From Solirubrobacteraceae bacterium (GTDB taxonomy: Bacteria; Actinomycetota; Thermoleophilia; Solirubrobacterales; Solirubrobacteraceae): a stretch of DNA of 64,000 nt. Shown one piece after another: positions 11,125 to 60,385 of the stretch. A model generated the notes under the pieces. That model was not told the DNA's origin, ran no database searches, and saw only the letters and a list, made by a program, of their open reading frames with translations. The position numbers were made by a program, and so were the translations under genes. The stretch's first letter is position 1. Every line of letters begins with the position of its first letter. The stretch spans positions 62,001 to 126,000 of the forward strand of contig JAJCYD010000033.1 in assembly GCA_029263125.1 (NCBI GenBank). Direction: 5' to 3'.

Positions 11125-11612
11125 GCACGGCGCCACCCTTCGAGCCGGCTGACGTTCGATCGACGCGGGTGCTCGTCGCCGGCGTGGGAAACGTGTTGCG
11201 CGGCGACGACGGGTTCGGGCCCGCGGTCGCCGAGCTGCTGGTCGGGCTTCCCGAGGGCGTGGAGGTCATCGAAACCGGGACGGGCGGCATCGCGCTCCTG
11301 CAGGAGCTCATGGTCGGCTGCTCCGGCCTGATCGTGATCGACGCGGTAGAGCGGGGAGCTGAGCCGGGAACGCTCTTCTACATCGAGCCCGAGATCGAGG
11401 AGACCGGACATGTGCCCGATGTCCATCTCGCCAACCCGGCTCGCGTGCTGTCGATGGCCAAGACGATGGGCCTGCTGCCCGAGCGCGTCGTGATCATCGG
11501 CTGTCAGCCGCTGGACACCGAAGAGCTGTGCCAGGGGCTCTCGCCCCCAGTGCAGCATGCGCTGCACATCGCCGTCAACAGGATCGAGGAGACAGTACAT
11601 GCCTGGCTATAA
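11121..11612 (+). CDS. Hydrogenase maturation protease (peptidase M52)
   Basis: 163 residues from GTG 11121, overlapping the previous stop (GTGA). The family start VLVAGVGNVLRGDDGFGPAVAE is intact, including the GN and the acidic Ni-sensing residue. VIDAVERGAEP gives the central Asp and PDVHLANPARV the His ligand. These endopeptidases sense nickel in the large subunit and cut its C-terminal extension after the last metal-binding His/Arg. The 25-residue tail of the large subunit here is a plausible substrate. Confidence 0.9.
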   Translation: MSTAPPFEPADVRSTRVLVAGVGNVLRGDDGFGPAVAELLVGLPEGVEVIETGTGGIALLQELMVGCSGLIVIDAVERGAEPGTLFYIEPEIEETGHVPDVHLANPARVLSMAKTMGLLPERVVIIGCQPLDTEELCQGLSPPVQHALHIAVNRIEETVHAWL

Positions 11613-12489
11613 CTCGATCGAGGAGCTGCGCACGGCGCTCACGAATGAGTGCTATCTCACCGACGACGGTCTCGCCACCGTGGTGTTCCTCGCGTTGCGA
11701 TTGCGAAAGCCCTTGCTCGTCGAGGGCGAACCGGGGGTTGGCAAGACCGAGCTGGCCAAGGCGCTGTCGGCGGCGACCGGAGCGCCTCTGATCCGCCTGC
11801 AGTGCTACGAGGGCATCGACGTCCATCACGCGCTCTATGACTGGGACTATCCGCGCCAGCTGCTGCAGCTTCGAGCGGGCGGGTCGACTCCGCTGTACTC
11901 CGAGGAGTTCCTGCTGCGCCGACCCCTGCTGGAGGCGCTCGCCCAGCCCGGGGCGGTCCTGCTGATCGACGAGCTCGATCGCGCCGACGACGAGTTCGAA
12001 GCGTTCCTGCTGGAGTTCCTGTCGGACTTCCAGGTGACCGTCCCCGAGATCGGGGTCATCCGCGCGCAGGAGCCGCCGATCGTGATCATCACGTCCAACC
12101 GCACGCGCGACCTGCACGAGGCGCTCAAGCGGCGCTGCCTCTACCACTGGATCGACCATCCTGACCTGCAGCGAGAGGTCGCGATCGCGCGGGCGCGCCT
12201 GCCGCATGTGGGCCAGCAGCTCGCAGACCAGGTCTGCGCGTTCGTGCAGGATCTCCGCTGGCTGGACCTCTACCGTTCGCCCGGCGTCGGCGAGACGCTG
12301 GACTGGGTCGAGGCGTTCCATGCGCTCGGGCGCTACGAGATCGACGCCCAGACCGCCAGCAGCACGCTTGGCACGCTGCTCAAGGAGCGCGACGACCTCG
12401 AGCGCATCCGCTCGGGAGGCGGTCTGGACGCGCTGATCGCACGATCCGCCGAGCGCGCTCGCAGCGCGCGACAGGGGAACTTCGGATGA
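11599..12489 (+). CDS. MoxR/CoxD-type AAA+ ATPase of the hydrogenase operon
   Basis: 296 residues from ATG 11599, overlapping the protease gene. Walker A is VEGEPGVGKTELAKAL, Walker B is AVLLIDELDRADDEFEAFL, and sensor/arginine-finger segments are IITSNRTRDLHEALKRRC. It closely resembles the CoxD gene at 54518 (identical blocks IRLQCYEGID, LLIDELDRADD and TSNRTRDLH). CoxD unfolds apo-CO dehydrogenase so that Mo-Cu can be completed. Having a copy translationally coupled to a vWA partner inside a hydrogenase operon suggests a parallel remodelling step for the hydrogenase. Confidence 0.9.
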   Translation: MPGYNSIEELRTALTNECYLTDDGLATVVFLALRLRKPLLVEGEPGVGKTELAKALSAATGAPLIRLQCYEGIDVHHALYDWDYPRQLLQLRAGGSTPLYSEEFLLRRPLLEALAQPGAVLLIDELDRADDEFEAFLLEFLSDFQVTVPEIGVIRAQEPPIVIITSNRTRDLHEALKRRCLYHWIDHPDLQREVAIARARLPHVGQQLADQVCAFVQDLRWLDLYRSPGVGETLDWVEAFHALGRYEIDAQTASSTLGTLLKERDDLERIRSGGGLDALIARSAERARSARQGNFG

Positions 12490-13763
12490 TCGTGGGAGCG
12501 CACAGGCGCACACCTGAGCAGGCCATCGTCGTGGCTGCCGTCGGACTGGCTCGCGCGCTACGCGAGCTCGGGCTCTCGGCGAGCGTCGACGCCGAGCACA
12601 CGTTCCTGCGAGCTCTGACCCTGATCGACGTTCGCGACCGTACCCAGATGTTCTGGGCGGGGCACTGCGCCTTCGTGCACACGCCCGAGGAACTGGCGGT
12701 CTTCGAGGTCGTCTTCGAACGCTTCTGGGAGGGCCGGCCGCTGATCCTGCAGGAGGCCGGCTCCGAGCACGGCGAGAGCGACGCGCGCATGCAGGGCTCC
12801 CATCACGGTGGCGAGGCGTTGCCGCAGTTCGGCGGCGAGGCCCGCACCGCGGTCCCGCTGGACGGCGCCGGCAACCGCGCGATCCAGGACATCCCGACGG
12901 CCGAAGGGGACACCGGGACCAGCCACCAGGAACGTGGCATCCTCGCCGCGTGGAGCGACGAGGAAGCGCTGAGCCGGCGCGAGAACCTCGAATATCAGCC
13001 CGACGAACTGCTCGCCCTGCGCCTGCTCGCACACGAGATCAGGCGTCAGGCTCCCGCCCGGCGCTCACGCCGCGCCAGGCCATCCCATCACGGCAATCGC
13101 TTTGACGTGCGCGGGACGGTGCGAGAATCGCTCGCCACCGAAGGCGAGACCTTTCGGCTCGCGTTCAGCGCCCCGACGCTGCGACCGCGCCGGCTGCTGT
13201 TCATCTGCGACGTCTCGGGCTCGATGGAGCGCTATTCGCGGGTGCTGCTGGCCACGCTGAAGGCGGCGATCGGCGCCGCCCGCAAGGCGGAGGCGTTCGT
13301 CTTCGCGACGCGGCTGACGCGCTTGACGAAGTCCCTGCACGGCCAGGATCTCGAGCGCTCGCTCGAGAAGGCGCGCGCGGCCGTCCCGGACTGGTCGGGC
13401 GGCACGCGGATCGGCGCGGCGCTGGCGGACTTCAACGCCAGCTACGGCCGCCGCGGGTTTGCGCGCGGTGCGATCGTGCTGGTCGTCAGCGACGGCTGGG
13501 ACCGCGGCGATCCGAAGATCCTCGCGGGCGAGGTCGAGCGCCTGCAGATGCAGGCCCGGCGGCTGGTCTGGATCAACCCGCGGCCGATGAGCGTCGACCG
13601 GCAGCCGCTGGCCATCGGCATGCGTGCCGCGATGCCGTACATCGACGACTTCGTGCCCGGGCACGATCCGCGCGCGGTCGCTGGACTCGCGCAGCTGATC
13701 GGCGGTCTGGCGGGCGAACGACCGGCGCGCAGAGCCGTCGCGCCAGCAACCGCCGGCGGCTGA
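12486..13763 (+). CDS. vWA-domain CoxE-like protein of the hydrogenase operon
   Basis: 425 residues, ATGA overlap with the MoxR gene. The C-terminal half is a von Willebrand A domain with the MIDAS motif ICDVSGSMERYS, then AFVFATRLTRLTKSL and VVSDGWDRGDPKIL. The N-terminal half is helical with a low-complexity linker. It is the paralogue of CoxE at 55476 (shared FVFATRLTRLTK and SDGW-RGDP blocks). MoxR-vWA pairs work together as metal-insertion or remodelling chaperones. The gene ends 177 bp before cassette A. Confidence 0.88.
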   Translation: MIVGAHRRTPEQAIVVAAVGLARALRELGLSASVDAEHTFLRALTLIDVRDRTQMFWAGHCAFVHTPEELAVFEVVFERFWEGRPLILQEAGSEHGESDARMQGSHHGGEALPQFGGEARTAVPLDGAGNRAIQDIPTAEGDTGTSHQERGILAAWSDEEALSRRENLEYQPDELLALRLLAHEIRRQAPARRSRRARPSHHGNRFDVRGTVRESLATEGETFRLAFSAPTLRPRRLLFICDVSGSMERYSRVLLATLKAAIGAARKAEAFVFATRLTRLTKSLHGQDLERSLEKARAAVPDWSGGTRIGAALADFNASYGRRGFARGAIVLVVSDGWDRGDPKILAGEVERLQMQARRLVWINPRPMSVDRQPLAIGMRAAMPYIDDFVPGHDPRAVAGLAQLIGGLAGERPARRAVAPATAGG

Positions 13764-49010: not shown

Positions 49011-49889
49011 TTGGCAATGCAGACCCCTGCACCGGTTGAGTATTCGCGCGCAACCAGTGTCGATGACGCCATCACACAGATGGCGAGCCACAATGGCAAC
49101 GCCCGATTCCTCGCCGGCGGCCACAGCTTGATCCCGATGATGAAGCTGCGCCTTGCCGATCCGGGCCACCTCATCGACATCAATCCGATCGAGGCCGAGC
49201 TCAACTACATTCGCGAGGAAGGCGGCGAGATCCGCATCGGTGCCATGACGCGGCACCGCAACATGCTCGAGAGCGACGTGCTCGCCAAGCACTTCCCGAT
49301 CTTCTTCGAGGCCGAGCACGTGCTCGCCGACCCGGTCGTGCGCAACCGCGGCACGATGGGCGGGTCGCTGTGCCAGGCCGACCCGGCTGAGGACCTCTCA
49401 GGCGTCGTCACCGCGCTCAAGGGCGAGGCCGTCCTGCGTGGACCCGGTGGCGCCGAGCGCGTCGTCGGCATGGAGGAGTTCCACATCGGGCCGTACATGA
49501 CGGCCGTCCAGCCCGACGAGCTGCTCATCGAGGTGCGCTTCAAGGTCAAGCCGGGCGGTGGCAGCGCGCACGAGAAGGTCGAGCGTCGCGCGGGAGACTT
49601 CGCCATCGTGGCCGCATCTGCCGCACTGTGGATCGAGGGCGGCGTGATCAAGGACTGCGGACTGGCATGCAGCGCCGTCGGCCCCACCACGATGCACATC
49701 GGGCGTGCAGAAGCTGCCGTGATCGGGAAGGCCCCCTCCGAGGAGCTCTTCGCCCAGGCCGGCGCGATGGCATCGCAGGACTGCTCGCCAAGCGCCGACG
49801 GTCGCGGACCGGTCGATTACAAGCGTCACGTCGCGGGCGTCCTCAGCAAGCGAGCCCTCAGCCGCGCTGCCGCCAGCGCGCTGCGATAG
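49011..49889 (+). CDS. coxM: Aerobic CO dehydrogenase medium (FAD) subunit
   Basis: 292 residues from TTG 49011, chosen because GGAAGGA (48994-49000) is well spaced for it; ATG 49017 is the alternative. FAD-binding motifs are FLAGGHSLIPMMKLRLADP and VRNRGTMGGSLCQADPAEDL. It takes electrons from CoxS and hands them to the respiratory chain. First gene of the cox operon. Confidence 0.95.
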   Translation: MAMQTPAPVEYSRATSVDDAITQMASHNGNARFLAGGHSLIPMMKLRLADPGHLIDINPIEAELNYIREEGGEIRIGAMTRHRNMLESDVLAKHFPIFFEAEHVLADPVVRNRGTMGGSLCQADPAEDLSGVVTALKGEAVLRGPGGAERVVGMEEFHIGPYMTAVQPDELLIEVRFKVKPGGGSAHEKVERRAGDFAIVAASAALWIEGGVIKDCGLACSAVGPTTMHIGRAEAAVIGKAPSEELFAQAGAMASQDCSPSADGRGPVDYKRHVAGVLSKRALSRAAASALR

Positions 49890-49901
49890 GAGATTTGACG
49901 A

Positions 49902-50393
49902 ATGCTAGTTTCAATGTCGATCAATGGCCAGACGCACTCGCACGATGTCGAGCCGCGCATGCTGCTCGTGCATTACATCCGCGAGATGGCCGAGCTGCAC
50001 GGCACCCACTGGGGCTGCGACACGTCCAACTGCGGCATCTGCGTGGTGCTGATGGACGGCGACCCGATCAAGTCGTGCACCACGCTCGCAGCCATGGCCG
50101 AGGGCCACGAGATCACCACCGTCGAGGGCCTCGAGAAGAACGGCGTCCTCGATCCGATCCAGCAGGGCTTTCATGAGATGCATGCCCTGCAGTGCGGCTT
50201 TTGCACCCCCGGGATGATGGTCACCGGCCGCGCGCTGATCGACCAGCATCCCAACCCGACCCAAATGACCGACTACGAGATCCGTGAAGCGATCTCTGGA
50301 GGCCTGTGTCGCTGCACTGGCTACGTGAACATCGTCAAGGCGATCAGGTGGGCTGCCGCATACGAGGCAGCCGCCGCCACCGGAGGTAATTGA
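49902..50393 (+). CDS. coxS: Aerobic CO dehydrogenase small (2Fe-2S) subunit
   Basis: 163 residues. The plant-ferredoxin type cluster is in GCDTSNCGICVVLMDG, continuing to SCTTLA. The second cluster is in LQCGFCTPGMMVTG and GGLCRCTGYVNIVKAI. Both are complete. It links the Mo-Cu site in CoxL with FAD in CoxM. 4 bp from coxL. Confidence 0.96.
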   Translation: MLVSMSINGQTHSHDVEPRMLLVHYIREMAELHGTHWGCDTSNCGICVVLMDGDPIKSCTTLAAMAEGHEITTVEGLEKNGVLDPIQQGFHEMHALQCGFCTPGMMVTGRALIDQHPNPTQMTDYEIREAISGGLCRCTGYVNIVKAIRWAAAYEAAAATGGN

Positions 50394-50396
50394 TTC

Positions 50397-52813
<2,417 letters not shown>

Positions 52814-52817
<4 letters not shown>

Positions 52818-53920
52818 GAAACCCCGCTCTGGCGCGGCGAGCTGAAGAGCTCGCCGCGCAGGGCGCGGCCTACGTGACCGCGACCGTCGTCCGCGCACAG
52901 CGGCCGACGAGCGCGCACGCGGGCGACGTCGCCCTCGTCACCAGCGATGGGACCATCCAGGGCTTCGTCGGCGGAATCTGTGCCGAGCACAGCGTTCGCC
53001 TCTTCTCCTGGACGGCGATGCAGACCGGCGAGCCGGTGCTGCTCAAGATCCTTCCGACGGCCCCCGAGGACGTCAAGGACCAGCCAACCGAAGAGGGTGC
53101 GGTGACCGTCTTGAACACCTGTCTCTCCGGTGGAGCGATCGAGGTCTTTCTCGAGCCGACGCTCCCGACTCCTCGCGTGAACGTCGTGGGCTCCAAGCCG
53201 ATCGCCGCGCACATCGAGCGGCTCGGGCCGGAGTTCGATCTGGACATCGTGGCCGTTGGCGACGCGCCGGCGGACGTCCGGGAGGGCGACCTGGGATTGA
53301 TCGTGGCCGCTCACGGCAAGGGTGAGCTGGAAGCGCTGCGAGCCGGCTTGGAGGCCGGCCTGCCGTATGTCGGCTTGGTCGCGAGCCCCAAGCGCGGCGC
53401 GGCGATCGTCGCGGAACTGCGCACCGCCGGGATGCCCGAAGAGCAGCTGCAGCGCGTCGAATGCCCGGCCGGCCTGGACATCAACGCCAAGATGCCGCCG
53501 GAGGTCGCGCTGTCGATCATCGCGCGGCTGATCGAGCGACGCCACAGCAAGGACTACTCGCCACCATTGCGCGCGCCCAGTGACCAGGAGGCTCCGACGT
53601 TCGCGGTCGACCCGATCTGCGGGATGACCGTCACGGCTGACGCCAACGCGCTGCAGGTGCGACACGACGGCGAGACGATCTACTTCTGCGCTCCGGGGTG
53701 TAAGAAGACCTACGAGCGCGAGCACATGGGCGCGGGCGCTTCTGAGCCCGCGGCGGGCAAGGCATCAAAGCCCAAGACCGCGGTGGATCCCATCTGCGGG
53801 ATGACGGTGCTGGCCACGGACGACACCCCCCATCTCGAACACCACGGCGAGACCGTCTATTTCTGTTGCGACGGATGCAAGGCGAAGTTCGAGGAGCAGC
53901 ATGCCGTCCCCGCCGGCTGA
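52814..53920 (+). CDS. XdhC/CoxF-type protein fused to two YHS metal-binding domains
   Basis: 368 residues from GTG 52814 (GTGA overlap with coxL). The XdhC-type N-terminal half shows RPTSAHAGDVALVTSDGTIQ, then GFVGGICAEHSVR. A Rossmann-like middle ends in GLDINAKMPPEVALSIIARL. Two YHS units follow, DPICGMTVTADANALQV...YFCAPGC and DPICGMTVLATDDTP...YFCCDGC, each with the Cys pattern for a soft metal such as Cu(I). XdhC proteins insert sulfurated Mo-cofactor, and attached copper-type domains would be a natural source of the Cu in the CODH active site. That link is inference. Confidence 0.85.
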
Positions 53921-54521
53921 CGGCTTCGTTGCGGGCCTCGTGCTCGGCGCCGGAGGGTCGCGGAGGCTGGGACGGCCAAAGCAGCTGCTGCCCTATGGCG
54001 ACGGCACGCTGCTGCACCATGTCCTGACGACGGCGCGCTCATGCCCCTTCAATCAGCGGCTCGTGGCGCTCGGCGGTTCGGCCGACGGCGTTCGCGAGCA
54101 GGTTGACCTGCGTGGGTTCGATGTCGTCATCAACGAATCGTTCGGCAGCGGATGCTCGTCGTCGATCGCCGCTGCACTCGGTCAGGTTGACGAGCGGGCC
54201 GACATCCTGGTGCTCATGCTCGGCGACCAGCCGGGCGTCACCGCGCAGACCGTGCGTGCGCTGCTCGCCGCTCGCGGCGACGCGCCGATCGCCGTCTGTG
54301 GATACGACGACCAGCGCGGGCATCCGTTTGCGTTCTCCCGTCGTATATTCGAAGAGCTCGCGAATCTCCACGGAGACAAAGGCGTGTGGCGCTTGTTGGA
54401 TCAGCGCGCCGCCGAGGTCGTGGAAGTCGCGATTCCAGGTCCGGTCCCGCTCGACGTGGACACCCCCGAAGACTACGAGGCAGTCCTGGCCGCGGCCGGG
54501 TTTATGGAGGTACGTGCATGA
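53901..54521 (+). CDS. mocA: MocA-type molybdenum cofactor cytidylyltransferase
   Basis: 206 residues, overlapping the previous gene by 20 bp. The nucleotidyltransferase signature is LVLGAGGSRRLGRPKQLLPY, with LMLGDQPGVTAQTVRALLAA and RGHPFAFSRRIFEEL downstream. It attaches CMP to molybdopterin, giving the MCD form used by CO dehydrogenase. MobA (guanylyl) is less likely in this setting. Confidence 0.88.
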   Translation: MPSPPADGFVAGLVLGAGGSRRLGRPKQLLPYGDGTLLHHVLTTARSCPFNQRLVALGGSADGVREQVDLRGFDVVINESFGSGCSSSIAAALGQVDERADILVLMLGDQPGVTAQTVRALLAARGDAPIAVCGYDDQRGHPFAFSRRIFEELANLHGDKGVWRLLDQRAAEVVEVAIPGPVPLDVDTPEDYEAVLAAAGFMEVRA

Positions 54522-55444
54522 GCCGATTGGGACGGAGCGAGGAGCTCGACGAAGAGATGCGCCGGCTGGTGCCGAGCGTCGAGAAGCTCGGCCAGATGCT
54601 GGGAGACATCGACTACCTCGCAGACGAGGGGCTGGCGACGTCGGCCTTCCTGGCGCTGCGCCTTCCGCAGCCGTTGCTGCTGGAGGGTGAGGCCGGCGTC
54701 GGCAAGACCGAGCTTGCCAAGGCGCTCGCCCAGGTCCTGGACACGCCGCTGATTCGTCTGCAGTGCTACGAGGGCATCGATGCCGCCGAGGCGCTGTACG
54801 AGTGGAACTATCCCAAGCAGCTGCTGAGCATCCGGGTGGCCGATACGAAGGGCTCAGAGCTTGGCGAGGAGGAGCTCTTCGGCCCCGACTACCTCATCCG
54901 CCGCCCGCTCCTGCGCGCGCTGGAGCACCCCGGCCCGCGGCCGGCGGTCCTCCTGATCGACGAGCTCGACCGCGCCGATGACGACTTCGAGGCCTTCCTG
55001 CTGGAGCTGCTCGCCGAGGCGACGGTCACGATCCCGGAGATCGGCACGATCAGGGCAACCCATCCGCCGATCGTCATCCTGACCTCCAACCGCACGCGCG
55101 ACCTGCACGACGCGGTCAAGCGTCGTTGCTTGTACCAGTGGATCGACTACCCCGGCGCCAAGCGCGAGGTCGAGATTGTCCGCCGGCGCGTCAAGGGCGC
55201 GTCGTCGGTGCTCACCGTCCAGGTCGCCAACGCCGTCTCGCGGATGCGCAAGTCCGACGTCCAGAAGCCGCCTGGCATCGCCGAGGCGATCGACTGGGTG
55301 TCGGCTTTGGGTATGCTCGGAATCGAGACGCTCGACGCCGAAAGCGCGGACAGGACCCTGGGCTCGGTGCTGAAGTACAGCGAGGATCAGGAGGTGATCC
55401 GCGCGTCGGGGCTCGAGGAGCTGATCGCGCTGGAGGAGAGCTAA
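54518..55444 (+). CDS. coxD: CoxD AAA+ ATPase for CO dehydrogenase maturation
   Basis: 308 residues, ATGA overlap. Walker A LEGEAGVGKTELAKALAQ, the shared IRLQCYEGIDAAEALYEWNY, Walker B LLIDELDRADDDFEAFLLEL, and TSNRTRDLHDAVKRRCLYQW. CoxD works with CoxE to complete the Mo-S-Cu centre. Its paralogue at 11599 is in the hydrogenase operon. Confidence 0.95.
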   Translation: MSRLGRSEELDEEMRRLVPSVEKLGQMLGDIDYLADEGLATSAFLALRLPQPLLLEGEAGVGKTELAKALAQVLDTPLIRLQCYEGIDAAEALYEWNYPKQLLSIRVADTKGSELGEEELFGPDYLIRRPLLRALEHPGPRPAVLLIDELDRADDDFEAFLLELLAEATVTIPEIGTIRATHPPIVILTSNRTRDLHDAVKRRCLYQWIDYPGAKREVEIVRRRVKGASSVLTVQVANAVSRMRKSDVQKPPGIAEAIDWVSALGMLGIETLDAESADRTLGSVLKYSEDQEVIRASGLEELIALEES

Positions 55445-55449
55445 TGCTC

Positions 55450-55467
55450 CCTCCAACACGTTGGAGG
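55450..55467 (+). promoter_or_regulatory. Inverted repeat that can hide the coxE ribosome site
   Basis: A perfect 18-nt inverted repeat (arms 55450-55457 and 55460-55467) whose 3' arm contains the GGAGG used by the GTG start of coxE at 55476. In the mRNA this hairpin would compete with ribosome binding unless coxD translation (stop at 55442-55444) opens it. The natural 2-nt loop means one or two closing pairs must open. Confidence 0.6.
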
Positions 55468-55475
55468 AACCACTA

Positions 55476-56936
55476 GTGGCTGACAACGGCTCTCCGGTAG
55501 ACAAGGTCAGGAGGGACGACTCCTACGCGGTCGAGGACATCGATCTGGACCTCCCCGCCGTCGTCGGGGCGTTCAGTCAGCGCCTGCACGCGGCCGGCAT
55601 GCCCGTCACGCCGTCGCAGACCCAGCAATACGCTCGTTCGCTGAAGCTGACCAAGCCCGTGTCGCGTCGCCGCCTGTACTGGGCGACGCGCGCGATCTTC
55701 GTGACCGGCTTCCTGCAGGTGCCAGCGTTCGACCGCGTCTTCCGCGAGGTGTTCGGCTCCTCGGCCAAGAGCGACTTCGACGACTCCGAGGTCGAGCTGG
55801 AAGCCGCTCCGCCGTCTGACTCCACCGAGACGCCAGAGTCCGAGCGCGACGACGAGTTCGACGCGCCGGAATCCTCTGGCGGCTCGGATCTCAGCCAGCC
55901 CAGCACGGGCAAGGGCGGGGACGACGACGAAGAGGGCGAGGAGATCGAGATCCCGATCCTCTCGGCCAGCGAGGAGGAGGAGCTGTCCGAGAAGCACTTC
56001 GCCGCCCTGCAATCCCACGAGCTTGCCGCGCTGTACCGGCTGATGGTGCGCCTGGACCTGGCAACGCCACTGCGGCGCACGCGCCGGCGCCAGCGCGGCC
56101 GCCACGGTGAGCACATGGACATGCGCCGCACGCTGCGCAACAGCCTGCGCACCGGCGGAGATCCGATCAAGCTCGCTCGCCGTCGCCGGCGTGTGCACAA
56201 GCGCCGGCTCGTGCTGCTGTGCGACATCTCAGGCTCGATGGAGCCGTATGCGCGCGCGTACCTGCAGTTCCTGCACTGTGCCCGCGCGAGTGGGCCCGAC
56301 GCCGAGGCGTTCGTCTTCGCGACACGACTGACACGCTTGACCAAGCAGCTCGCCGGGCGCAACCCGCAGCGAGCCATCCGTCGTGCCACCGAGGCCGCGC
56401 CGGACTGGTCGAGCGGCACGCGTATCGGCGACGCGCTGAAGGCATTCAACGACCTCCATGGCCGGCGCGGCATGGCCCGCGGCGCGGTCATCGTGATCCT
56501 GTCGGATGGATGGGAGCGAGGGGACCCCGAGGTCGTCGCGACGGAGATGGAGCGCCTGGCGCGCTTCGCCTACCGGATCGTGTGGGTGAACCCGAGGGTG
56601 AGCGCCCCCGGCTTCGCACCCAAGGCCGGAGGCCTGGTCGCGGCGTTGCCGTATTGCAACGCACTGGTCAGCGGCCACAGCCTCAATTCGCTCGACGAGG
56701 TCGCCGACGCGATCGGGGCCGACCTCGCGAAGGACGCGCTCGGACTCGCCAATTGGAAGCCGCCGTCGCTGGATGGCGACGAGGAGGAGGAGCAGACCTG
56801 GGGCGTGGCGGGCTCGGGCACCGTCGGTGCTGCGATGCCCAGCAACCTGCTCGGCATGGTGCCTTCGAAGGGCAAGACGGCGCCTGGCCGCAGCTGGTCA
56901 GACGTCGACGACGAGGGCTACGCGACGGACCGCTGA
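55476..56936 (+). CDS. coxE: CoxE vWA-domain protein
   Basis: 486 residues from GTG 55476. A long acidic linker (ESERDDEFDAPESSGGSD, then GGDDDEEGEEIEIPILSASE) precedes the vWA domain with MIDAS LLCDISGSMEPYARA, AFVFATRLTRLTKQLAG and ILSDGWERGDPEVVA. CoxE is membrane-associated and pairs with CoxD. The gene matches the hydrogenase-operon vWA protein. Confidence 0.93.
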   Translation: MADNGSPVDKVRRDDSYAVEDIDLDLPAVVGAFSQRLHAAGMPVTPSQTQQYARSLKLTKPVSRRRLYWATRAIFVTGFLQVPAFDRVFREVFGSSAKSDFDDSEVELEAAPPSDSTETPESERDDEFDAPESSGGSDLSQPSTGKGGDDDEEGEEIEIPILSASEEEELSEKHFAALQSHELAALYRLMVRLDLATPLRRTRRRQRGRHGEHMDMRRTLRNSLRTGGDPIKLARRRRRVHKRRLVLLCDISGSMEPYARAYLQFLHCARASGPDAEAFVFATRLTRLTKQLAGRNPQRAIRRATEAAPDWSSGTRIGDALKAFNDLHGRRGMARGAVIVILSDGWERGDPEVVATEMERLARFAYRIVWVNPRVSAPGFAPKAGGLVAALPYCNALVSGHSLNSLDEVADAIGADLAKDALGLANWKPPSLDGDEEEEQTWGVAGSGTVGAAMPSNLLGMVPSKGKTAPGRSWSDVDDEGYATDR

Positions 56937-57299: not shown

Positions 57300-57752
57300 C
57301 TAGTCGCGATACGCCGTCTGCGCGTCGAGCGAGCCCTCGAGGCCTGCCGGAAGCTCGATAGCTCCCGCATGCGCGTACAGCGCGATCTCCTCGATTCGCT
57401 TTCCCGCCGACGGGTCGCGGCCCGGAGACCATGCGCCGTTGCCCCATGTGAGGCTCTGTGGGCTGGTGCCCAGCATCCCCGATGCAAGGATCTGCGCCTT
57501 CTCGCGGATCTTGCGACAGGTCGCGGCCACAGCGTTGGCGGTGCCGTTGCTCGGACTCGTCAGGAACCCGTGCCCATCTCCGAAACGGTCGTAGTCCTGT
57601 GGGACGACTTCCGTATCGTCGAGCGGGATCCCCAACTCGTCGGTCACGATCTGCTGCAACTGACGCTGCTGCCCGCCAGCGTCGCAGCTCAGGCTGAGGA
57701 CCGTCTTGCCCGTCGGATGCACGCGCAGGAAGACGGCTCTATACGCGCCCAT
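57300..57752 (-). CDS. Stand-alone CoxL/xanthine dehydrogenase-like domain fragment
   Basis: 150 residues from ATG 57752 with a strong GAGGAGGGA ribosome site. HPTGKTVLSLSCDAGGQQRQ, IVTDELGIPLDDTEVVPQDY, and SPSNGTANAVAATCRKIREK align with the middle-to-C-terminal third of CoxL (HPSGKAVVSISAQTQGQGHE, IVAEELGISPNDITVRHGDT). Similarity ends at LEGSLDAQTAY where the stop occurs. Lacking all other domains, it cannot be a working Mo enzyme alone. Either a remnant of a CoxL-like gene with a preserved start, or a repurposed domain. Confidence 0.65.
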   Translation of the reverse strand: MGAYRAVFLRVHPTGKTVLSLSCDAGGQQRQLQQIVTDELGIPLDDTEVVPQDYDRFGDGHGFLTSPSNGTANAVAATCRKIREKAQILASGMLGTSPQSLTWGNGAWSPGRDPSAGKRIEEIALYAHAGAIELPAGLEGSLDAQTAYRD

Positions 57753-58489: not shown

Positions 58490-58712
58490 GGGCGCGATTG
58501 TATGCGCGCGTGCGCCACGATGGCGTGCCCGGCACGGCGCGTTCGGCTCGCCAGCACCGCGAGGGCATCCCACGGACGGAAACTGGCATACTGCACGCGC
58601 TGCACGGCGGCTCATACCCTCGCGGCCCGCCCCGGCAGTTGCTCGGTCGCGCGTGCGGACGCGGTCGGCACGACGCTGCCGCCATGTTTTCGATCCGCAC
58701 AGGAGGAGACCT

Positions 58713-59132
58713 ATGCCGACATTGAACGAGTCGTTTTCAGTTCCCAATGGCCAGCAGAGCTGGGCCGTTGTCACCGACCTCAACAAGCTCATCCCGTGCG
58801 TCCCGGGCGCCAAGGTGCTGTCAGCCGACAGCCCGAGCAAGGCGCAGGCCGAGATCACCGTGAAGATGGGCTCGATGGGCATGGTCTTCACGGGTCCCGT
58901 CGAGATCCTGTCCCAGGACGGGACGACCGCCAAGATCAAGGCCAACACGCGCGAGAAGGGCGGACAGAGCAACGCCTCGGGCGACGTCACGATCTCCGTG
59001 TCGGGCAACAACGTCAGCATCAGCGCCGACGCTCAGGTGAGCGGCAAGGCTGCATCGATGGGCGAGGGCACGATCGTCGCCGTCCTCACGCAGCTCGTAA
59101 AGTCCTTCGCGGGCAACCTCGCGACGGCCTAG
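58713..59132 (+). CDS. coxG: CoxG-type SRPBCC protein
   Basis: 139 residues from ATG 58713 with AGGAGGAGA. NESFSVPNGQQSWAVVTDLN, the CVPGAK motif and GSMGMVFTGPVEIL are typical of carbon monoxide dehydrogenase subunit G. CoxG is thought to recruit the enzyme to the membrane or shuttle quinone. It lacks the C-terminal membrane tail some homologues have. Confidence 0.92.
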   Translation: MPTLNESFSVPNGQQSWAVVTDLNKLIPCVPGAKVLSADSPSKAQAEITVKMGSMGMVFTGPVEILSQDGTTAKIKANTREKGGQSNASGDVTISVSGNNVSISADAQVSGKAASMGEGTIVAVLTQLVKSFAGNLATA

Positions 59133-59309: not shown

Positions 59310-59624
59310 ATGAAGGACGTAATCGAGGACGTCGATCGCTGGATCGAACGCGGCGACAAGGTGGCGCTCGCGACGGTGGTCGGTCTGCGCCGCTCGGCAC
59401 CGCGCCCGCCCGGCTCGAAGATGGCGATCAACGACAAGGGCGAGATCTCCGGCATGGTGTCCGGCGGCTGCGTCGAGGGCGCCGTCATCGAGATCGCCGA
59501 CGGCGTCATCGGTGGCGATGAGCCGCAGTTGCTGACGTTCGGGATCACCGACGACATGGCCTTCGACGTCGGGCTGCCGTGCGGCGGCGAGATCGACGTG
59601 TGGGTCGAGCGGTACGAGCCATGA
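59310..59624 (+). CDS. XdhC N-terminal domain protein
   Basis: 104 residues from ATG 59310 with GGAAGGAG. VALATVVGLRRSAPRPPGSK, then EISGMVSGGCVEGAVIEIAD, and FDVGLPCGGEIDVWVERYEP form the first XdhC_CoxI unit, including the conserved Cys residues. The second half is a separate gene with a 4-bp overlap, so the usual single XdhC is split in two. These proteins bind and sulfurate Mo-cofactor for insertion. Confidence 0.87.
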   Translation: MKDVIEDVDRWIERGDKVALATVVGLRRSAPRPPGSKMAINDKGEISGMVSGGCVEGAVIEIADGVIGGDEPQLLTFGITDDMAFDVGLPCGGEIDVWVERYEP

Positions 59625-60385
59625 GCAGCGTCCAGGCGGCATTTGCCGAGATCGCTCGCAACGACGGACGCGCGGCGCTCGTGACGGCGCTCAAGGGCGA
59701 CCACGCCGGCGAGCGCATGCTCGTCCAGGTCGATGGCGGCACCGAGGGAACGCTCGGCGACGCGGACCTCGACGCCGAGGGCGTCGCGGGCGCGCAGGAG
59801 CTGATGTGGTCCGACAAGTCCGAGGTGCGCGGCGACCTGTTCATCGACATCACGTCACCGCCGCCGCGGCTGGTGATCTTCGGTGCCGTCGAGTTCGCGA
59901 CGCACCTGTCGGCCATCGCGAAGGTCGTGGACTGGCGCGCATACGTCGTGGATCCGCGTGCCCGGTTCGCGACGCGCGAGCGCTTCCCGGACGCCGTCGA
60001 CGTCGTCGCCGGCTGGCCGGATGACGCGTTTGAGAAGCTCGGCGCGATCGACCCGGCGACCTACCTCGCGGTGCTGACGCACGATCCCAAGCTCGACGAC
60101 GCCGTCCTGCTGATGGCGCTGCGCTCCGACGCGCCGTACATCGGGGCGATGGGCTCCAAGCGGGCGCAGGCCGAGCGCCGCGAACGGCTCATGGGCCATG
60201 GCGTCACCGACGAAGATCTCACGCGGATCAGCGCTCCCGTCGGCCTGGACCTCGGCGCCAAGGGTGCTCGTGAGACCGCACTCTCGATCATGGCCGAGTG
60301 CGTCGCCGTGCGCTACGGGCGCGACGGCGGGCGGCTGTGTCAGAAGGGCGCGGACCGCAAGCGCATCCACGCAGAGGCGGGGTAA
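59621..60385 (+). CDS. XdhC Rossmann-domain protein
   Basis: 254 residues, ATGA overlap. PRLVIFGAVEFATHLSAIAK and YVVDPRARFATRERFPDAVD form the Rossmann unit, with AVLTHDPKLDDAVLLMALRS, YIGAMGSKRAQAERRERLM and PVGLDLGAKGARETALSIMA as the C-terminal XdhC signature. It completes the split XdhC with the previous gene. A third XdhC-type protein is the YHS fusion at 52814. Confidence 0.9.
   Translation: MSSVQAAFAEIARNDGRAALVTALKGDHAGERMLVQVDGGTEGTLGDADLDAEGVAGAQELMWSDKSEVRGDLFIDITSPPPRLVIFGAVEFATHLSAIAKVVDWRAYVVDPRARFATRERFPDAVDVVAGWPDDAFEKLGAIDPATYLAVLTHDPKLDDAVLLMALRSDAPYIGAMGSKRAQAERRERLMGHGVTDEDLTRISAPVGLDLGAKGARETALSIMAECVAVRYGRDGGRLCQKGADRKRIHAEAG

Follow-up and report, generated by a model that had tools for sequence, protein, structure and literature searches.

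We show here that the fusion of an XdhC-type protein with YHS domains is a conserved architecture specific for form I CO dehydrogenase (CODH) loci. The fusion was studied in a Solirubrobacteraceae window, the whole analysed stretch of 64,000 nucleotides, where we assign the gene at positions 52814-53920 of the forward strand as an orthologue of coxF. Judged from sequence comparison, CoxF would act as a form-I-specific copper-delivery factor with its C-terminal soft-metal tail as the copper carrier, and we give this reading a probability of roughly 0.6. The finding bears on the route by which Cu(I) is brought to the Mo-S-Cu site of the aerobic enzyme. CoxF itself is already a known factor, and the protein is best regarded as a new variant.

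Results

The gene was identified from the ORF listing, from Pfam and from its place in the CoxF clade of a tree, and encodes a protein of 368 amino acids with the order XdhC-YHS-YHS. Its GTG start codon (52814-52816) overlaps the TGA of coxL (52815-52817), and its stop codon, read from the ORF, ends at 53920. The N-terminal XdhC_CoxI domain (PF02625, residues 14-78, 52853-53047) scores 49.7 bits against a cut-off of 24.3 and contains Cys56 (52979-52981) of an invariant GGxC motif. It is followed by the CoxF motif C-x-S-x-G (CLSGG with Cys103, 53120-53134), at whose place CoxI and XdhC proteins carry PCGG, and by a Rossmann-like XdhC_C domain (PF13478, residues 124-238, 53183-53527; 71.6 bits, cut-off 29.7). 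Two YHS domains complete the protein, one at residues 266-304 (53609-53725) and one at residues 323-361 (53780-53896), all on the plus strand. Both were recovered by Pfam (PF04945, two stretches, 56.0 bits against a gathering score of 30.3), by pattern and in the structural model, and each has an Asp and three Cys as ligand set. The arrangement D-x2-C...C-x3-C is kept in both copies, with DPICGM at 266 and 325 and the second and third Cys in YFCAPGC at 290 and YFCCDGC at 349. Hence, the original prediction of an XdhC protein that starts on the coxL stop and carries two Cys-bearing YHS units is confirmed by Pfam, by the reading of the ligands and by the GTG/TGA overlap.

An AlphaFold2 model built from the window protein and 52 homologues (53 sequences) has a mean pLDDT of 90.4 and predicts both YHS domains to be folded, with strands and a helix at high pLDDT. 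The body of the model matches the solved XdhC structures 2we8 and 3on5 in profile and fold searches. In the VIA-align/Foldseek comparison the XdhC Rossmann part dominates, and no YHS chain was present among the matches listed. At the profile level the protein matches the YHS of phenol hydroxylase (E 1e-4), and plasmid matches to its tail are mostly heavy-metal P-type ATPases.

The gene is embedded in a cox cluster with the order coxM-coxS-coxL-coxF-mobA-coxD-coxE ... coxG-coxI, all on the plus strand. The enzyme subunits, coxM (FAD subunit, 49011-49889) and coxS (2Fe-2S subunit, 49902-50393), both recognized by Pfam, and coxL (50397-52817), precede it. That the adjoining coxL is of form I, as had been claimed, holds true: it scores 1214 bits against TIGR02416 (cut-off 991) and has the active-site loop AYRCSFR with Cys385. 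Downstream, a MobA/MocA-like nucleotidyltransferase gene (53901-54521), which shares its first 20 bases with the end of coxF, is followed by coxD, encoding a MoxR-type AAA ATPase (54518-55444), by coxE, encoding a VWA protein (55461-56936, Pfam), and by coxG (58710-59132, Pfam). The cluster also encodes its ordinary XdhC chaperone, coxI (59310-60385), which has no YHS domain and is split into two ORFs for the N part (59310-59624) and the C part (59624-60385). The two halves overlap at an ATGA; L274 and L275, both of form II, and several other loci have the same split, while CoxI of O. carboxidovorans is a single protein. Behind coxE lies, on the minus strand (57300-57752), a stand-alone ORF of about 150 amino acids that resembles part of the second Mo-binding domain of CoxL, with the motifs HPTGK, DRFGxGH and SLDAQ. 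It is kept in three relatives, from the genus, the order and the class of the window organism (L042 4404, L043 5171, L048 5924), where it lies on the coxE strand, in contrast to the opposite orientation in the window. A second coxD/coxE-like (MoxR/VWA) pair is encoded outside the cox cluster, at about 11494-13500 on the plus strand.

Several observations support the assignment as CoxF. The nearest relative for which genetics is available is CoxF of O. carboxidovorans, with 32.9% identity over residues 20-249. In a quick tree of 74 CoxF and 3 CoxI rows the window protein groups with the CoxF of strain OM5 and apart from CoxI (SH-aLRT 97), and it combines the XdhC_CoxI and XdhC_C domains with a location in a form I cox cluster. 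The profile used to label CoxF contained the window protein, so that its profile score is by itself circular. GGxC was found in 78/78 CoxF proteins and C-x-S-x-G in 75/78, while a stricter pattern of the latter was absent from all 63 control XdhC/CoxI proteins and from the 49 CoxI of form I loci. RGD, in contrast, is present in only 8/78 and RHGxR in 3/78. The published CoxF model, in the available sections of its source, relies on a single alphaproteobacterium and on two kinds of CoxF motif, RGD and phytase (PMC4240915), which are thus poorly conserved. Public annotation labels CoxF proteins merely as 'XdhC family protein'.

We surveyed 296 genomes of the window's phylum, which is probably Actinomycetota by the closest named CoxF sequences in the tree, taking matches with E up to 1e-17 as CoxF-type and CoxL identities of 53% or more as form I; the CoxL matches fall into two groups, one at or above 53% and one at 38-44% identity. 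A CoxF-type match was present in 47/47 form I genomes and in 3/249 of the others; the Fisher test of this contrast takes related genomes as independent. In two of the three exceptions, G127 and G103, a coxL fragment lies at the end of a contig (L074, L088). The third, G221, contains an orphan C-terminus of CoxF with YHS (135 amino acids, L089, G221:C11, 2642-3049) that has no cox genes in its vicinity; apparently a relic, it is the one clear exception to the form I restriction. The 50 loci around strong matches (the window and L042-L090) contain 49 CoxF ORFs above 60 bits, among which 44 have YHS, one has no tail (L057) and four are ended by the contig. XdhC-type ORFs below 60 bits were dropped from the tail counts, which removed L089 as a fragment without coxL.

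Across phyla, loci were collected with form I coxL alone as query, a scan blind to CoxF; this query was chosen because no part of the CoxF alignment was sufficiently conserved to scan genomes with. Among the best 80 named form I loci listed, 75 have a CoxF ORF, and 70 of these loci have an intact CoxF tail: 49 YHS, six CC-type with at least two Cys in CC motifs, one CHGHG and 14 neither. The tail-less proteins (14 of 70 among the best 80 listed) come from eight Alphaproteobacteria, five Actinomycetota and one gammaproteobacterium. As they include the alphaproteobacterial clade, to which the sole CoxF with genetic data belongs, the tail is not essential everywhere. Ten of the 80 loci have no intact tail: in four, no CoxF was found within the DNA fetched around coxL (L234, L235, L250, L260), in one the contig ends in coxE (L262), in one CoxF is broken (L248) and in four CoxF is ended by the contig (L193, L209, L228, L254). 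In L250 and L260, form I coxL is clustered with the genes for CoxD, CoxE and MobA, but CoxF, which their relatives have, is missing.

The fusion with a single YHS recurs in about 15 phyla among the matches listed, and is thus not a chance event. Record titles of YHS-bearing CoxF name Chloroflexota, Acidobacteriota, Armatimonadetes, Gemmatimonadetes, Neomarinimicrobiota, Bacteroidota, Thermoplasmata, Nitrososphaerota, Bacillota, Actinomycetota, Eremiobacterota, Dormiibacterota, Gammaproteobacteria, Burkholderiales and Halobacteria, and such proteins are also encoded on Thermomicrobium and Deinococcus plasmids. One YHS copy is usual. Two copies were seen in 2/97 YHS-bearing CoxF among the matches listed, both from the window's genus; a fusion peculiar to this genome was considered and rejected, since the single-YHS form is widespread and it is the duplication that is local.

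Form II loci give the opposite picture. Neither CoxF nor an XdhC-YHS fusion was found in 38 form II loci, 30 from the window's phylum (including two with an unclassified active-site loop) and eight from plasmid records (two archaea, five Alphaproteobacteria and one Rubrobacter). CoxD, CoxE and CoxI are kept together in 22/38 (18/30 from the phylum and 4/8 from plasmids), indicating that CoxF is an accessory of the copper enzyme. The original prediction had named a fusion located mainly away from form I coxL as evidence against itself, and the distribution favours the prediction: CoxF-type matches occur in all 47 form I genomes against 3/249 others, and none of the 38 form II loci has CoxF or the fusion.

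The tails themselves were read by pattern. Among 54 YHS-type CoxF, 43 have the ligand set D/C/C/C, ten N/C/C/C and one is degenerate. YHS was absent from 63 control XdhC/CoxI ORFs, two or more tail Cys were absent from the 27 controls with a delimitable tail, and neither feature was found in 49 CoxI of form I loci. In several lineages the YHS domain is replaced by other thiol tails. SCCGG-type tails take its place in five Burkholderiales CoxF (L227, L239, L241, L265, L267), with the motif repeated in three of them, an HCCG tail is found in Actinomadura CoxF and CHGHG in M. elephantis CoxF. CC motifs also stand side by side with YHS, in L195 (Acidobacteriota), in L219 and in L036 (Natronorubrum). 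When the tails are removed before tree building, the YHS label requires at least six changes and the CC-type tails three, and the thiol tails replacing YHS have at least three origins. The five Burkholderiales proteins with SCCGG form one group inside YHS-bearing gammaproteobacterial sequences, among which is L219. Twelve CoxF rows that were truncated, broken, paralogous or without a trimming anchor were left out of the tree, and the paralogues L200 (first ORF), L218b and L219b were excluded from both the tree and the motif counts. That unfolded thiol motifs can stand in for a folded metal site suggests that selection may act on the capacity of the tail to hold a soft metal and not on its fold. 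We also considered that YHS might be supplied in trans in tail-less, notably alphaproteobacterial, loci. A search of 19 tail-less loci for ORFs of at least 30 amino acids gave no candidate, with no YHS above the inclusion threshold and no copper-chaperone motif GM[TSHK]CxxC.

Discussion

The available sections of the O. carboxidovorans study describe that CODH from coxE and coxF mutants lacks copper and some of the sulfur but is otherwise complete, and that maturation of the Mo-S-Cu cluster takes place in an apoenzyme already folded and loaded with cofactor (PMC4240915). Each of the two mutants is described there as being without both the CoxE and the CoxF protein. The copper phenotype is therefore not that of CoxF alone, since the coxF mutant also has no CoxE. 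CoxE occurs with both enzyme forms and CoxF with form I alone, hence the comparison of genomes separates the two proteins where genetics cannot. For YHS domains, the accessible part of the work on an adenylyl cyclase from M. phlei reports that the domain confers a response to Cu, which activates the enzyme, while six other metal ions, among them Zn, Fe, Cr, Co and Ni, are ineffective (PMC4626032). Copper delivery by CoxF is suggested by these three lines together: the loss of Cu in the mutants, the restriction of CoxF to form I and the Cu response of the cyclase YHS.

From distribution and ligands we infer a Cu(I) chaperone role for the CoxF of the window, with Cu(I) binding by the tail, docking on CoxL and a transfer path as its putative steps. 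The YHS tail would take up Cu(I) through its Asp and three Cys. The XdhC-like body, descended from chaperones that dock on molybdo-subunits, would bind the folded apo-CoxL, and Cu would be passed to the Mo-bound sulfido ligand and to Cys385 of CoxL, perhaps via Cys56 and Cys103 of the body. The Mo-cofactor would be handled by CoxI, while CoxD and CoxE would help to open the apoenzyme and to handle sulfur. A wider proposal, to which we give slightly better than even odds, is that CoxF serves as dedicated copper chaperone of form I CODH throughout bacteria and archaea. Its soft-metal tail, usually YHS and in some lineages repeated SCCGG, would hold the copper and would have gone unnoticed owing to its loss in the model organism; as it has been replaced several times, any Cu(I)-holding sequence might do.

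A first alternative is that the YHS tail is not a carrier, but senses copper or the thiol redox state and thereby gates CoxF, which would be active only with copper. The sole YHS fusion studied biochemically, in the sections of PMC4626032 available, is indeed such a Cu-responsive switch, and the tail is dispensable in Alphaproteobacteria. We nevertheless regard a sensor as unlikely, because the unstructured CC tails that replace YHS in several lineages look suited to holding metal and do not resemble an allosteric domain.

Even less probable is that the YHS domains are structural, zinc-finger-like contact modules for dimerization or for docking to CoxL or CoxE, with Zn or nothing bound. This would be in line with a flexible tail (the linker has a median of 19 residues, and residues 310-316 of the window protein fall below pLDDT 50 in the AlphaFold2 model), with the weak ribosomal L24e hits (E 0.011) that are the tail's best PDB sequence matches, and with some YHS/TRASH folds being known with Cd or without metal. 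However, it leaves the restriction to the copper enzyme and the replacement by CC tails unexplained.

The original prediction went further than copper delivery and proposed that one protein brings both the sulfurated Mo-cytosine-dinucleotide cofactor, on its XdhC part, and Cu(I), on its YHS part, which we consider very improbable and rejected as main reading: XdhC proteins do bind and protect the Mo-cofactor (available sections of PMC2997495) and XdhC_N and XdhC_C are intact in the window protein, but CODH of the coxF mutant is described as retaining a partly sulfurated Mo-cofactor and its cluster as maturing after cofactor loading (PMC4240915, in part), a separate CoxI is encoded in the cluster and CoxI, not CoxF, also serves form II clusters, and CoxF has C-x-S-x-G where PCGG would be expected. 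The proposal is thus strengthened in its copper half, by the form I restriction, the Cu-free mutants and the cyclase, but not in its Mo half.

A ligand tail on CoxF in most lineages, together with its absence from form II clusters, singles out CoxF as copper-specific, and a metal-binding tail that is common on CoxF yet missing in the model organism is a good candidate for the long-sought copper carrier. The tail lends itself to expression and titration as an isolated domain, and CoxF with its tail would mark copper-type CODH in genomes. In the open-access journal literature we found no paper joining XdhC or CoxF with YHS, and none joining YHS with 'carbon monoxide dehydrogenase', which is weak evidence for the novelty of CoxF-YHS.

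Compared with known systems, the closest is CoxF of O. (Afipia) carboxidovorans OM5 (pHCG3, WP_013913733). It shares with the window protein the XdhC_N and XdhC_C body, the location in a form I cox cluster and both GGxC and C-x-S-x-G (CPSHG in OM5). It differs in that it has 280 amino acids and stops after XdhC_C, without YHS and without a Cys tail, and the gene order is coxL-D-E-F in OM5 compared to coxL-F-mobA-D-E in the window. The wider XdhC family (PF02625/PF13478), with XdhC of R. capsulatus, PaoD of E. coli and CoxI, has both domains and the fold of 2we8 and 3on5; an earlier report likened CoxF to the XdhC of other putative CODH operons and CoxI to PaoD and, in its accessible part, left their functions open (PMC2997495). 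CoxF is set apart from this family by C-x-S-x-G in place of PCGG, by its restriction to form I CODH and by its frequent soft-metal tail. With YHS/TRASH proteins (PF04945), such as the M. phlei adenylyl cyclase and heavy-metal P-type ATPases, the window protein shares the Asp and three Cys ligands, but in contrast to these its YHS domains are fused to an XdhC-type maturation factor.
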